Positions 14,850 to 52,988 of a stretch of DNA of 64,000 nt are shown here, piece after piece. Source of the stretch: Candidatus Kapaibacterium sp. (GTDB lineage: Bacteria; Bacteroidota; Ignavibacteria; Kapaibacteriales; UBA2268). The notes under the pieces are model-generated. The model was not told where the DNA came from. It saw only the letters and a list, made by a program, of their open reading frames with translations, and searched no databases. The first letter of the stretch is position 1; every line of letters starts with the position of its first letter. The stretch covers positions 1-64,000 of the forward strand of contig JAOABA010000058.1 of assembly GCA_026418625.1 (NCBI GenBank). Reading direction: 5' to 3'. Made by a program: the position numbers and the translations under genes.

Positions 14850-16118
14850 TCATAGAGAAATTTTTAACTTATTTTCAAAAAAGGATTTAAAATTTATTAG
14901 AAAAGCTATAAAAAGAAGTAAAGATGAAATGATAAAACACCATTCAATATTCAATGTTGATGAAACAAAACCACAAAGCAAAAAACTAATTAACGCACCG
15001 AATAAATTAGCACTCGAAGCTAAACCCATTAATCCACCTGCATTTTCTCTGTCGGTTCTTTTACTCAGTGCTGTGAATAGTGATGGTAATATCCCTGCAA
15101 AAAAAACACCTAACATTATTCTTAATGGAAATAAATAATAATAAGCTGGAACAAATAAATGACATAAAATCACTACCCCTGAAACCAATAAACTGACAGA
15201 TAATGTTTTTTTATAATCCTTGCGGTCATTTCGCCTTCCCCAAATTGGAGCAAAAATAATGGTGAATATTCCAACAATTCCAACAAGCAAGCCTGTTATA
15301 GTGGAAAGATATTTTATTGGAGCACCAAGATTTTCAACAAAGTATGGAAATATTGGTTGAGTAAAAAGTATCCCTGCCTGTGAAATTATTATTAATAATA
15401 ATATAGTTGTCAGGCCCTTTGTATTTTTAACAATTTTTAAATTCTTTAACAATCCATCACTTTTCTTGATAGTTCTATTCTCACTTTCTTCCTCAACAAA
15501 TTTAATAATCAGGAAGCTACTTACCAGACACAAAGCCCCAACAAGAAAAAACACAATCCTTAGTCCAAATAAATCAGATATAATTCCGCCGATAAAAGGT
15601 CCTACGATTGTTCCCGCTGATTGAGAGCTTTGTAAAATTCCAATAGCATATCCTGAACGCTCTTTTGGAGTATTGGCTGTAACAAAAGCTAATGAAGCAG
15701 CAACATAGCCACTTAATGCACCTTGAAGAACCCTAAAGAAAAATAGCTGATAGACATTTTGCGAAAATCCCATCAATACCATAGAAATTGCCAGACCAAG
15801 AATAGCCCTGACAACCATTAGCTTTCGACCATATTTATCGCCTAATGTTCCCCATATCGGAACAGTAATGATTGAAAAAAAGTATGGACCTGAAAAAATT
15901 ATTCCGCTCCAAAACTTTGCTTCAGTCATATCAGTAATTCCTAAATCCCTAATGAACAAAGGCAGAAATGGGACACAAGAACTCATTCCTGCCATTGCTA
16001 TAAATTGGGCTAAGGATAAATAAATTAGGTTCTTTTTCCAGTTGGTATTTTTAGAATTGATTATTTCTATTAATTGGTTGAATCTTTTGAAAGCCGGATT
16101 AAACGTTATTTCTTCCAT
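14850..16118 (-). CDS. MFS multidrug-type efflux transporter
   Basis: A 422-residue, 12-TM major facilitator. The TM2-3 loop motif GTLGDKYGRKLMVV and the TM5 antiporter motif region 'GILQSSQSAGTIVGPFIGG' are those of drug:proton antiporters (DHA1 group, TetA/MdtG-like). An N-terminal cytoplasmic extension of ~30 residues precedes TM1. The ATG directly follows the TAG stop of the upstream glycosyltransferase gene, so translation is coupled. The substrate is not predictable. Being next to a polyisoprenyl-glycosyltransferase-like gene leaves a glycolipid or polymer export role open. Confidence 0.82.
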   Translation of the reverse strand: MEEITFNPAFKRFNQLIEIINSKNTNWKKNLIYLSLAQFIAMAGMSSCVPFLPLFIRDLGITDMTEAKFWSGIIFSGPYFFSIITVPIWGTLGDKYGRKLMVVRAILGLAISMVLMGFSQNVYQLFFFRVLQGALSGYVAASLAFVTANTPKERSGYAIGILQSSQSAGTIVGPFIGGIISDLFGLRIVFFLVGALCLVSSFLIIKFVEEESENRTIKKSDGLLKNLKIVKNTKGLTTILLLIIISQAGILFTQPIFPYFVENLGAPIKYLSTITGLLVGIVGIFTIIFAPIWGRRNDRKDYKKTLSVSLLVSGVVILCHLFVPAYYYLFPLRIMLGVFFAGILPSLFTALSKRTDRENAGGLMGLASSANLFGALISFLLCGFVSSTLNIEWCFIISSLLLFIAFLINFKSFFENKLKISL

Positions 16119-16820
16119 CTACTTATGGAGTCGTCTTATCTCAAAGAGTTCTAAAAATGCTTTAAGTCCTTTAACTGGGCTTACAGTTGTCCGGTCGTCA
16201 TTATACCATTCGACTGGAACCTGTCTAATTTTAAAACCTTCTTTTTTTGCTATGTATAAAATTTCGACATCAAACCCGAAACCATCTATTTTTGCTTTCT
16301 TAAAAACCTTCTCAGCCGCATAATCCTTGAAACCTTTAAATCAACATTGAGTATCCTTTATTCCAGAAAAACGAATTGTTCTAACAAATAAATTGAAAGT
16401 TTTCCCAAGAAATTCCCTGAAAAAAGGTTGATGAACTCTTATTAATTCTGGTTGAATTGCACGGCTGCCAATACAAATATCAGCATCACTTTTTAATTCA
16501 TTCATTATTTTTTGTAGCTCATAAATCGGAGTTGAAAAATCTGCATCAGAAAATACTCTTATCACTCCCTTTGACTCAAGCATTCCTTTCCTAACGGCTG
16601 CACCCTTTCCACTATTCCTTTCGAGCTTGAATACTTTAACGGAGTCCCCGAAATTTTTTGCTACTTCAGCAGTTTTATCAACTGAGCCATCATCAACAAC
16701 TATAATTTCGTATTCGTTAAAATTTTCTGATAAATATTCTTTGGCTGAGAGGAGTGATTTTCCAATCCTCTCAGCCTCGTTATATGCTGGTATAATCAAT
16801 GAAATTTCGGGTTTGGACAT
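16119..16820 (-). pseudogene. GT2 glycosyltransferase interrupted by one in-frame TGA
   Basis: A family 2 glycosyltransferase of the dolichyl-phosphate-glucose/mannose synthase type. It has a GT-A fold with 'LIIPAYNEAERI', 'VVDDGS', and 'FSDADFSTP' carrying the DxD metal site. Codon 160 is TGA (16343-16341) exactly where the family motif DTQCGFK has Gly ('DTQC*FKGF'). The same frame then continues intact for 73 more codons ('GFGFDVEILYIAKKEGF', 'VPVEWYND') to a TAG at 16121-16119 that abuts the next ATG. The full protein would be 233 residues, normal for the family. A GGA-to-TGA change explains it. TGA is used as a normal stop elsewhere here (e.g. 4138, 38720), so recoding is unlikely. This is either a recent nonsense mutation or a sequencing error. 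Confidence 0.85.
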
Positions 16821-16834
16821 TATGCTAACAGTTT

Positions 16835-19800
16835 TTATTGATTCTTTGCGGTGTCGTTCCTTGCATTACCACCTAATCTCTTTAATTGTTCATCCATATA
16901 TCTCGCCATAGACTGTATTAGCGGATCCTGATCAGACATATATTTTTTGTATAAAGAATCAGCTTTCTCAATAGCTTCTTTTTTCTTGCCCTGACTTTCG
17001 AGCAATTCTATTTCCGTTTCGTCTATTCCAACAAGATTCCCAAGAATGTCATAAATATTTTTCTGAACTTGACTTGCCTCGTTCTGATATTGAGGATTTC
17101 CTTGAATGCTCGAAAGGGCTTGACGGCTTAAAGTGTAAAGAGCCATTAGCTTTTCTCTGGCAGCATTATAATCTCCCAAGATTTTATATGCCTCGGCAGC
17201 TGATTTATGAACGCCGTGTCTGCCTTTCATTTCATCGGCAATACTTTCTACTCTGTCTCTCCGTAATTTATTGTTCGAGAGAATTTCATTACAACTCTTG
17301 ATTGTTCTTCTTGCCCATTCTCTTGCTTTTTCTTTGTCTCCTGCCTCATTGTATAGCATAGCTATCTGTGATTCTTCGTCGTGATATAATGGGAAATAAA
17401 CAGGTGAGATATATTTATTCATTAAATCAATAATTTTTATGCATTTGGCTGAATCTTGCTTGGTCTCAAGCTGATAAGTTGCATAATTTAGATATAATAT
17501 TCGATAATTTGTCATCAGTCTTCTATGAACTTCATCATAGTAGTAATAGCTACTGCCATCAAGGTTCCTAAGTTTAAATCCAAATTTTGGTTCTCTCGAA
17601 AAGTTATTTGAATTGTCAACATTCATCAAACAAGCATCCATAACCTTCTCATAGATTTTTCCAGTTTTCAAACTATTAACTGGCACTGGACAAACCCTCA
17701 TTGCCATTCCTTCATATCTCAAATGCCTTCCTAATCCCGAGAAAACATCCGGACCAACTGATGATGAAAAGTAAACAGGTCTTTCAAATTTTGTTTGCTG
17801 CAAAATATCAAGAATTAGTTTGTTGTTTACATAAAAAACATAATATGTTTTTCCATCACGTTCGCCGAGCCTTTGTCCAACAAAAGTAAAATTCATTTGA
17901 CCTGAGTTTATAATATTTTGATCATCGGTATATTCTGCAAGAATTTCCTTTTTTACAGGTATTGTAATATTCTTTGCCTCTCCAAAATCATAGGTCAAAG
18001 CCCTGTCATCTGTCTCATCTACACGCAAACTCTCGTCTGAAAATGACAAAGGAATCTTCTTAGCTCCCCAAGGCTCTCTGTTCTTTAATTGGTCAATATA
18101 CCATAAAGTCTGTCCTAAGCTCAGATTTACGACTCTCACATCTCTTCTGACGCCTTCTACATCCTGTAAAAACCATAATGGGAATGTATCATTATCCCCA
18201 TTTGTAAATAATATAGCATCTTTTTCGCAGCTTTGAAGAATGTTGTATGAATAGTCAAACGGTATATAATTTCCTGCTCTTGTATGTATATTCCAACCGC
18301 CTATTGCCATATTCACCGGAACTAAAATTAAACTTAAAGCAACTATCAAGGACGCAAATGCAGTTGATTTTTTCTTTTTAAATACCCACTCTACCAATGC
18401 ATAGGTTCCTAAACCAATCCACATACAAAATACCATAAATGAGCCAGTATAGAAATAATCACGCTCCCTTGGCTGTGGATTTTGTTGATTCTGGGCAATT
18501 GCAGCCAGAACACCCATTAATAAGAACATAACAAGATAGACCCACGCCATCTTTTTATCCTTGGTAAAATGAAAATAGAGCCCTATTAACCCAAGAAGTA
18601 AAGGCAGCGCAAAAAATCTTACAGGAAATTGTGATGCATATCCCGATTTGTAATTCAAAATATCAGATTCTCCCTTGTCAATGAAAGCAAAATCAGCGTC
18701 TTGAACATCACTTTGCCGACCCACGAAATTCCAGAAGAAATATCTTAAATACATATGCAAAATCTGATATTTCCATAAATAATTCAGCTCACCTTGAGTA
18801 TTGACATTGCTCCAATCCGGAACAGATATAGCCTGACCATCTTTTCTTACAACTCTTTTAGTTTCTGGCTCATTCCATTCACCATAGACATAGTTTCCAT
18901 TTTCATCACGTTGATTGTAATAAAATTTCTTCTGCTCATCATTATAATCAGTTCTGCGAGGCCACATTCTTTGTTCGCCATATTGCTCACGACCGAGATA
19001 GGAAACCAATTTGGGGAAATTTTTCGGCTCATTCTCGTTCATTGGTGGATTGGCGTTTGAGCGTAACAAAACCTGAGTATATGTAGTAAAACCAAAAAGA
19101 ATCAATAAAAAGAATGTTGTTGCGAGCTTGAGCATATGATATTTCTTCTTAATACCATACCAAAGAAGTGCAATGGCTCCAGCGATTATTCCTATAGCAA
19201 ATAAAGTCATAACTGGGCTATCTTCTATAATTCTCTCTCTTGCTTCATTTTTGAATGGTGAATCGCCAGCAAGCATCGTAGGCATCCACATTATCACAAA
19301 CTGATAAGCTATGAAAAACACAACCAATGCTATAATACCCATTAAAATAAAGGATTTAGTATTTATTTCATATTTTCTGAAATAGATTACCATTACAATC
19401 GAAAATATAGTTAATATAGCAAGTAAGTGAACGCCCGTTGAAAGTCCAAGTATATAAGCGATAAGCAATAAATATCTTTCGTGCCCCGGATTATCTGCAA
19501 CTTCATTCCATTTCATCATCAGATAAACAACCAATGCTGTAAATAATGAGGAAGTAGCATAAACTTCGGATTCAACTCCATTAAACCAAAGTGTGTCGCT
19601 GAAGCAAAACGCCAAGGCTCCAACAAAAGCAGAACCATAAACCATTAATCTGTCTGCTAAGTCAGAAATTTCCTCTTTCCTGAAATTTAATATAACCTTT
19701 ACTGTAATTATATAAAGAAGTAAAATTGTAAAGGATGTAGCGACAACAGATACCATATTAATCCGCCATCCAAGATCCCCAAATGGAATTAAAAACTGAA

Positions 19801-19990
19801 ATAAACTACCTATCATCAAAAATAATGGTGCCCCCGGTGGATGTGGAACCTGCTGCCATATTGCTGCTGCAGAGAATTCACCGCAGTCCCAGAAAGGAAC
19901 CGAAGGCTGCACAGTTAATGAATATACTATGAATGTAATAAGGAAGGAAAGAATTCCAAATCCCCAGTAAAATTTCTTATTTTGGTTCAT
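16835..19990 (-). CDS. DUF2723 membrane protein with C-terminal helical repeats
   Basis: 1051 residues. The N-terminal half (to about residue 560) is polytopic, with the DUF2723 signature 'FWDCGEFSAAAIWQQVPHPP' in the first periplasmic loop, a GT-C-like feature. The C-terminal half is soluble, contains 'ILFTNGDNDTFPLWFLQDVE' and ends in TPR-like helices (about 900-1040). The family is widespread in Bacteroidota and is thought to be a membrane glycosyltransferase, though this is unproven. It is 14 bases upstream of the GT2 gene, which would supply a polyprenyl-linked sugar donor, so the two plausibly form one glycosylation unit. With that GT2 gene broken, the unit may be inactive in this strain. 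Confidence 0.8.
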   Translation of the reverse strand: MNQNKKFYWGFGILSFLITFIVYSLTVQPSVPFWDCGEFSAAAIWQQVPHPPGAPLFLMIGSLFQFLIPFGDLGWRINMVSVVATSFTILLLYIITVKVILNFRKEEISDLADRLMVYGSAFVGALAFCFSDTLWFNGVESEVYATSSLFTALVVYLMMKWNEVADNPGHERYLLLIAYILGLSTGVHLLAILTIFSIVMVIYFRKYEINTKSFILMGIIALVVFFIAYQFVIMWMPTMLAGDSPFKNEARERIIEDSPVMTLFAIGIIAGAIALLWYGIKKKYHMLKLATTFFLLILFGFTTYTQVLLRSNANPPMNENEPKNFPKLVSYLGREQYGEQRMWPRRTDYNDEQKKFYYNQRDENGNYVYGEWNEPETKRVVRKDGQAISVPDWSNVNTQGELNYLWKYQILHMYLRYFFWNFVGRQSDVQDADFAFIDKGESDILNYKSGYASQFPVRFFALPLLLGLIGLYFHFTKDKKMAWVYLVMFLLMGVLAAIAQNQQNPQPRERDYFYTGSFMVFCMWIGLGTYALVEWVFKKKKSTAFASLIVALSLILVPVNMAIGGWNIHTRAGNYIPFDYSYNILQSCEKDAILFTNGDNDTFPLWFLQDVEGVRRDVRVVNLSLGQTLWYIDQLKNREPWGAKKIPLSFSDESLRVDETDDRALTYDFGEAKNITIPVKKEILAEYTDDQNIINSGQMNFTFVGQRLGERDGKTYYVFYVNNKLILDILQQTKFERPVYFSSSVGPDVFSGLGRHLRYEGMAMRVCPVPVNSLKTGKIYEKVMDACLMNVDNSNNFSREPKFGFKLRNLDGSSYYYYDEVHRRLMTNYRILYLNYATYQLETKQDSAKCIKIIDLMNKYISPVYFPLYHDEESQIAMLYNEAGDKEKAREWARRTIKSCNEILSNNKLRRDRVESIADEMKGRHGVHKSAAEAYKILGDYNAAREKLMALYTLSRQALSSIQGNPQYQNEASQVQKNIYDILGNLVGIDETEIELLESQGKKKEAIEKADSLYKKYMSDQDPLIQSMARYMDEQLKRLGGNARNDTAKNQ

Positions 19991-52574: not shown

Positions 52575-52988
52575 CTATACCATTTTTGCTTCCCAAGTTA
52601 AATTACAGCCTGATCTCTTTATCATTGCTGAGATGCTGCAATAAGTCCCTTCGGATAATTCAATTGATCTTTCCAAATCTTTTAATTCAGCATCAGGGCT
52701 TTTAAGTTCGTAAACTAAATGAATATCGGTGAATACTTTGGGATGGCTGTCTGCTCTTTTCCCTTCAATATTCAAAGTGATACCTTCGACAGTTTTTCTC
52801 TTTTTTCTTAAAATGCTTACTACGTCCATCAATGTGCAGGCACCAAGAGCTTGAAGCAGAACTTCCATTGGTGTTGGAGCAGAATCATCACCACCAACCT
52901 TATCAGTTGTATCAAAATATGTTATATGATTACGGCTGTCTTTTCCCATAAATCGCAAGTTCTTGTCTAATTCGAGAGTAACTTTCAT
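52575..52988 (-). CDS. OsmC-family protein
   Basis: 137 residues with the OsmC/YhfA pattern: 'GGDDSAPTPMEVLLQALGAC', then TLMDVVSILRKKR, and a second Cys in SEGTYCSISAMIKRS. OsmC and Ohr use a Cys pair to reduce organic hydroperoxides; this one is nearer to the YhfA-like subgroup, whose activity is less certain. It is cytosolic and monocistronic, with a CCTCC/GGAGG ribosome-binding site upstream and its own terminator downstream. Confidence 0.88.
   Translation of the reverse strand: MKVTLELDKNLRFMGKDSRNHITYFDTTDKVGGDDSAPTPMEVLLQALGACTLMDVVSILRKKRKTVEGITLNIEGKRADSHPKVFTDIHLVYELKSPDAELKDLERSIELSEGTYCSISAMIKRSGCNLTWEAKMV

Follow-up and report, generated by a model that had tools for sequence, protein, structure and literature searches.

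The family-2 glycosyltransferase (GT2) gene of this Candidatus Kapaibacterium sp. is interrupted by a TGA at a position where all other aligned homologues have glycine. Overall, this TGA looks like an ordinary premature stop produced by the change of one base and not a sign of a changed genetic code, and it would go back either to a true mutation or to an error in the consensus. The evidence consists of the intact and constrained reading frame around the stop, the conservation of the glycine in homologues, the regular use of TGA as a stop codon in the sampled part of the genome, and the tRNAs and release factors of the assembly.

An in-frame TGA in the GT2 gene

In the window (the whole 64,000-nucleotide stretch of DNA that was analysed), the coding part of the GT2 frame without its final TAG extends from 16122 to 16820 on the minus strand, and its 233 codons contain one in-frame stop at codon 160 when translated (Table 1). 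The plus strand reads TCA at the site, corresponding to TGA on the minus strand, and the translation around it is DTQC-stop-FKGF. The premature stop is thereby confirmed as a real feature of the sequence. A reading of the sequence alone (hereafter the sequence-only reading) had described a frame that resumes after the TGA and continues for 73 codons to a TAG abutting the next ATG. The translation agrees with this in full, as the TAG lies at 16119-16121 and directly adjoins the ATG of the downstream MFS gene, whose ORF runs from 16118 to 14850.

The read-through product belongs to the family according to the PF00535 profile (99.6 bits at a cut-off of 23.3), and the 159-aa part by itself reached 98.8 bits. 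A restart codon (ATG, GTG or TTG) was sought in the 73-codon extension after the TGA and none was found, which rules out an internal restart. A spare GT2 copy was not evident elsewhere in the organism's own genome, where the other 18 matches are at most 40% identical and the best-scoring one is 30% identical.

Table 1. Position of the interrupted GT2 gene, its parts and its neighbours in the window.
Feature	Position	Strand	Evidence
GT2 frame, interrupted at codon 160	16119..16820	-	233 codons + TAG; translation, PF00535
Premature stop TGA at the conserved Gly of DTQC-G-FK	16341..16343	-	Sequence; Gly in 46/46 other aligned homologues
Truncated 159-aa GT2 product + stop, nucleotide-binding half with DAD motif	16341..16820	-	ORF list, PF00535, DAD in translation
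73 codons past the TGA, protein-level constraint kept, no restart codon	16122..16340	-	Codon-position changes vs G001
DUF2723 / TMEM260-like protein gene upstream of GT2, free of internal stops	16835..19990	-	PF11028, 201.8 bits
MFS transporter gene downstream of GT2, free of internal stops, ATG abuts the TAG of GT2	14850..16118	-	PF07690, 204.4 bits

Conservation of the frame and age of the stop

For the glycine column, 47 sequences were aligned, namely the GT2 and 46 others, the latter comprising the loci of 29 relatives (fetched for 29 of the 59 matched relatives) and 17 of the 80 named contigs. Glycine occupies the TGA column in every one of these 46 homologues, encoded by four different codons, and none has a stop there, with the restriction that the 46 are not all independent, as some named contigs probably duplicate genome records that were also counted. 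The expectation of a glycine at this place of a DTQCGFK motif is thus borne out. In the nearest relative, the glycine codon at the site is one substitution away from TGA. The sequence-only reading had also pointed to related genomes as a check, and the same-genus relative, designated G001, indeed carries an uninterrupted GT2 copy (83% identity) with a glycine codon at the site.

The closest named matches to the GT2 protein stem from draft genomes labelled Ignavibacteriae, Ignavibacteriota and Kapabacteria, with identities of no more than 59%. Matches at E <= 1e-45 were obtained in 75 of the 123 genomes of the order, 79 matches in total with a few partial ones, and internal stops occurred in two of them, the TGA described here and one TAA. 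The latter interrupts a GT2 homologue of G007 (L012, G007:C39:21531-22220; same family) whose frame is intact elsewhere; it lies at codon 30 of the matched stretch, a different site from that of the TGA.

In the comparison with G001, the protein identity was 80.5% for the part before the TGA (159 codons) and 87.5% for the part after it (72 codons). By this homology, a chance adjacent ORF was ruled out as the explanation of the extension. The changes at the first, second and third codon position numbered 24, 11 and 80 before the TGA and 6, 5 and 36 after it, and dS of the part before the TGA was 1.75. Judged by these substitutions, the stretch after the TGA is no less constrained than the stretch before it. 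Since both parts are equally conserved, the stop would be either very recent or an artefact, and the combination by which these two cases are recognized, a constrained downstream frame and an intact copy in near relatives, is present. The sequence comparison speaks against a long-standing pseudogene; the candidate explanations left are a stop that arose very recently, an artefact and readthrough.

TGA as a stop codon in the genome

To describe stop codon usage, 24 stretches of the genome amounting to 523,814 bases (window included, approximately one sixth of the genome) were sampled, and genes were called with a simple codon-usage caller. Within the window, 40 ORFs were considered (49 ORFs of at least 100 aa minus nine shorter ones overlapping other ORFs), eight of which end in TGA, GT2 included. 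The 294 genes called in the sample end in TAA (206), TGA (48) or TAG (40), which is in line with the earlier remark that TGA terminates other genes. With the caller set slightly differently, TGA stood at the end of 52 of 309 genes in the present genome and of 18 of 86 genes in G001 (181,522 bases).

A coding-scored extension (score >5) follows the TGA in two of the 48 cases. GT2 is one of them, and in the second the extension is the following gene, which has an ATG of its own. Past TAA and TAG, 16 of 246 extensions scored >5; each of the 16 contains a Met codon among its first 20 and resembles a following gene in the same frame. In a further TAG case (window 52575-52988), the extension of 35 codons scored lower, at 3.4, contains no Met and is apparently non-coding. 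The test covers extensions past a stop in the same frame that are long enough to score as coding, and for such extensions of the 294 sampled genes no internal TGA was seen other than that of GT2. The search for further in-frame TGA codons, named by the sequence-only reading as a way to detect a code change, therefore gives no indication of one in the sample, where TGA is otherwise terminal. In the sampled genes of this genome, TGA is an ordinary stop.

tRNAs and release factors

The 42 tRNAs found include none with a UCA anticodon, an absence that is strong but not absolute given the incomplete assembly. The anticodon stem of tRNA-Trp is ordinary, with 5 bp. Wobble reading of TGA by a tRNA-Trp whose anticodon stem has only 4 bp, an idea taken from excerpts of PMC13092985, was rejected on account of this 5-bp stem. 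The in-frame TGA adjoins a Cys codon, which would suit selenocysteine; however, no tRNA-Sec exceeded the family cut-off of 47 (best hit 42.2 bits), the 11 hits listed coincide with ordinary tRNAs, and the 46 other aligned homologues have glycine and never cysteine at the site. Selenocysteine was rejected for the want of a tRNA-Sec over the cut-off, and we regard it as extremely improbable.

Release factor 2 (RF2) is the factor that recognizes TGA, and searches of the assembly by profile and with the DNA of the partial gene of G001 did not find it. The prfB profile matched the RF1 gene alone, with 310.9 bits and under its cut-off of 370, and the same gene was claimed by the prfA profile with 511.5 bits. 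The RF-1 domain profile likewise matched the RF1 gene only, and in the DNA search that included the partial RF2 gene of G001, the RF2 part matched only the conserved stretch of RF1. In the control, the prfB search was over the cut-off in 10 of 14 named genomes. Among 60 neighbourhood genomes (the present one counted), RF2 was over the cut-off in 53 and missing in seven, and a match at the level of RF1 (280-322 bits) was present in 54 and missing in six, the latter being a count of rows with the identity of RF1 checked for the present genome alone.

Both release factors are needed for life under the standard code, so their drop-outs were taken as a measure of the gaps in draft genomes. The genome itself is a draft of 3.30 Mb in 58 contigs with a completeness of 96.4%. 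Among the 42 tRNAs of the assembly, tRNA-Cys was not present either, and since the cell cannot dispense with it, the assembly seems to lack essential genes. With tRNA-Cys missing and RF1 and RF2 dropping out about equally often in related drafts, the absence of RF2 was read as a gap, and gaps most likely explain it better than true loss, with a small doubt left.

In G001, a rho-GT2-RF2 order ('rho' being named by eye) ends with the contig, the end of which cuts the RF2 gene. What comes after the rho-GT2 block in the present genome is a type IIG-like restriction-modification gene, beyond which the sequence matches other contigs of G001. This low-GC gene (L201:5640-8630; PF07669 Eco57I with 139.8 bits, TaqI_C) sits where G001 has RF2. 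At the RF2 loci of 30 relatives (flanks up to approximately 1.5 kb), rho and the neighbouring GT2 of either genome were sought with no clear match, and two loci (L167 and L188) gave weak matches to rho of approximately 24% identity. Given the lack of a clear match within these flanks, the rho-GT2-RF2 order is no family rule, and the locus in the present genome proves no deletion. Near its start, the RF2 gene of G001 contains a CTT-TGA site (L195:15060-15080), with one TGA inside the match. We take this site to resemble the known +1 programmed frameshift of prfB, and by this analogy it suggests normal RF2 autoregulation in the genus.

With regards to the meaning of TGA, the missing RF2 is the one observation that would favour a genome-wide reading as glycine or some other amino acid, of the kind seen in Gracilibacteria and Absconditabacteria (NCBI table 25), all the more as the prfB search detected its target in most controls and neighbourhood genomes. 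The likeness to that code consists of the TGA at a glycine position and of RF2 not being found in the assembly. In contrast to it, TGA ends many genes here, the sampled extensions past it except that of GT2 either not scoring as coding or being a neighbouring gene; the sample holds one internal TGA instead of many; neither a UCA tRNA nor a tRNA-Trp with an unusual stem was found; G001 of the same genus has a similar use of TGA stops together with an RF2 gene; and the lack of tRNA-Cys speaks for an assembly short of essential genes. TGA stop usage, the tRNAs and the fact that the site is unique in the sample led to the rejection of a code change, whose probability is minimal. The sequence-only reading had likewise leaned away from a code change and named a nonsense mutation of recent origin and an error in the assembly as its two options. 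Excerpts of PMC8629427 name UGA to Gly or Trp as the bacterial changes known before the Codetta screen, and state that UGA was considered still a stop in species that have RF2 and lack a tRNA with a UCA anticodon. The present genome likewise uses TGA as a stop with no UCA tRNA found, and differs from these species in that an RF2 gene was not seen. A literature search on Kapabacteria and the genetic code gave nothing on the subject among the matches listed.

Two further readings concern termination itself. Readthrough of the TGA at this site, by which some full-length GT2 would still be made, would be consistent with the fully constrained downstream frame and with the missing RF2; however, the stop is not conserved in any other aligned homologue, and neither a UCA-anticodon tRNA nor a tRNA-Sec was found, so that we consider it unlikely. 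A recent true loss of RF2, with TGA poorly terminated across the genome and the nonsense codon tolerated by readthrough, would amount to an early code change and is barely conceivable.

Consequence for the enzyme and its neighbours

Residues 5-231 of the read-through product align with a similar GT2, the dolichyl-phosphate mannose synthase of Pyrococcus furiosus (PfDPMS, PDB 5mlz; phmmer, E 1.9e-20). For this enzyme, excerpts of PMC5526996 describe an acceptor loop of residues 202-210 and a gating Phe177. With an inferred numbering offset of 22, the loop aligns near residues 208-217 of the query by phmmer, and both the loop and Phe177 align past codon 160. Compared with 5mlz, the GT2 is shorter (233 aa vs a chain of 374 residues), and its TGA comes ahead of the part that aligns with the acceptor loop. 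No uninterrupted full catalytic domain including this loop is left, as the stop removes the last 74 residues. Because the aligned loop region and Phe177 both lie past the stop, the 159-aa product is most likely inactive.

Relatives of the DUF2723 gene were present in 27 and relatives of the MFS gene in 15 of the 46 fetched homologous loci, counted within limited flanks, and the order DUF2723, GT2, MFS is kept in G001. The earlier suggestion that the stop would silence a DUF2723-GT2 unit holds for the GT2 product, which is directly truncated, but is too strong for the unit, as the upstream DUF2723 gene has no internal stop. The stop may affect the abutting MFS gene through translational coupling.

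Origin of the stop

Our preferred reading, to which we give about an even chance, is that a single-base substitution made a true, recent nonsense TGA in the GT2 gene. One base change would have turned the glycine codon of a conserved DPMS-related GT2 into TGA, and translation would cease after residue 159, with TGA acting as an ordinary stop. The product would retain the nucleotide-binding half and lose the C-terminal rest, and the event would be so recent that the remaining frame shows no decay. Two observations weigh against a nonsense mutation, since the lack of decay past the TGA fits a consensus error at least as well, and the absence of RF2, taken alone, would favour a changed meaning of TGA.

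The rival with a probability somewhat short of one half is that the gene is intact in the organism and the TGA arose in the assembly, either through a wrong base in the consensus or because the assembler picked the allele of a minority strain. The draft state of the genome, the undecayed downstream frame and the wide occurrence of GT2 matches in the order argue for it, and excerpts of PMC11017572 report assembly errors as the source of many pseudogenes with internal stops in bacterial assemblies. However, no other gene among the 294 sampled had a coding-scored extension past an in-frame stop that was not a neighbouring gene, and the consensus is thus not visibly error-rich within the scope of that test.

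For comparison, recent nonsense or spurious internal-stop pseudogenes in bacterial drafts have the same form, i.e., a one-base stop in an intact, constrained frame with an uninterrupted copy in a close relative. The comparison showed no difference from them and leaves a real stop and an artefact as the two candidates. The finding matters little beyond annotation, in which the GT2 gene is to be marked as interrupted and should not serve as evidence of a code change. Only a true loss of RF2 would make the TGA of this GT2 gene interesting.
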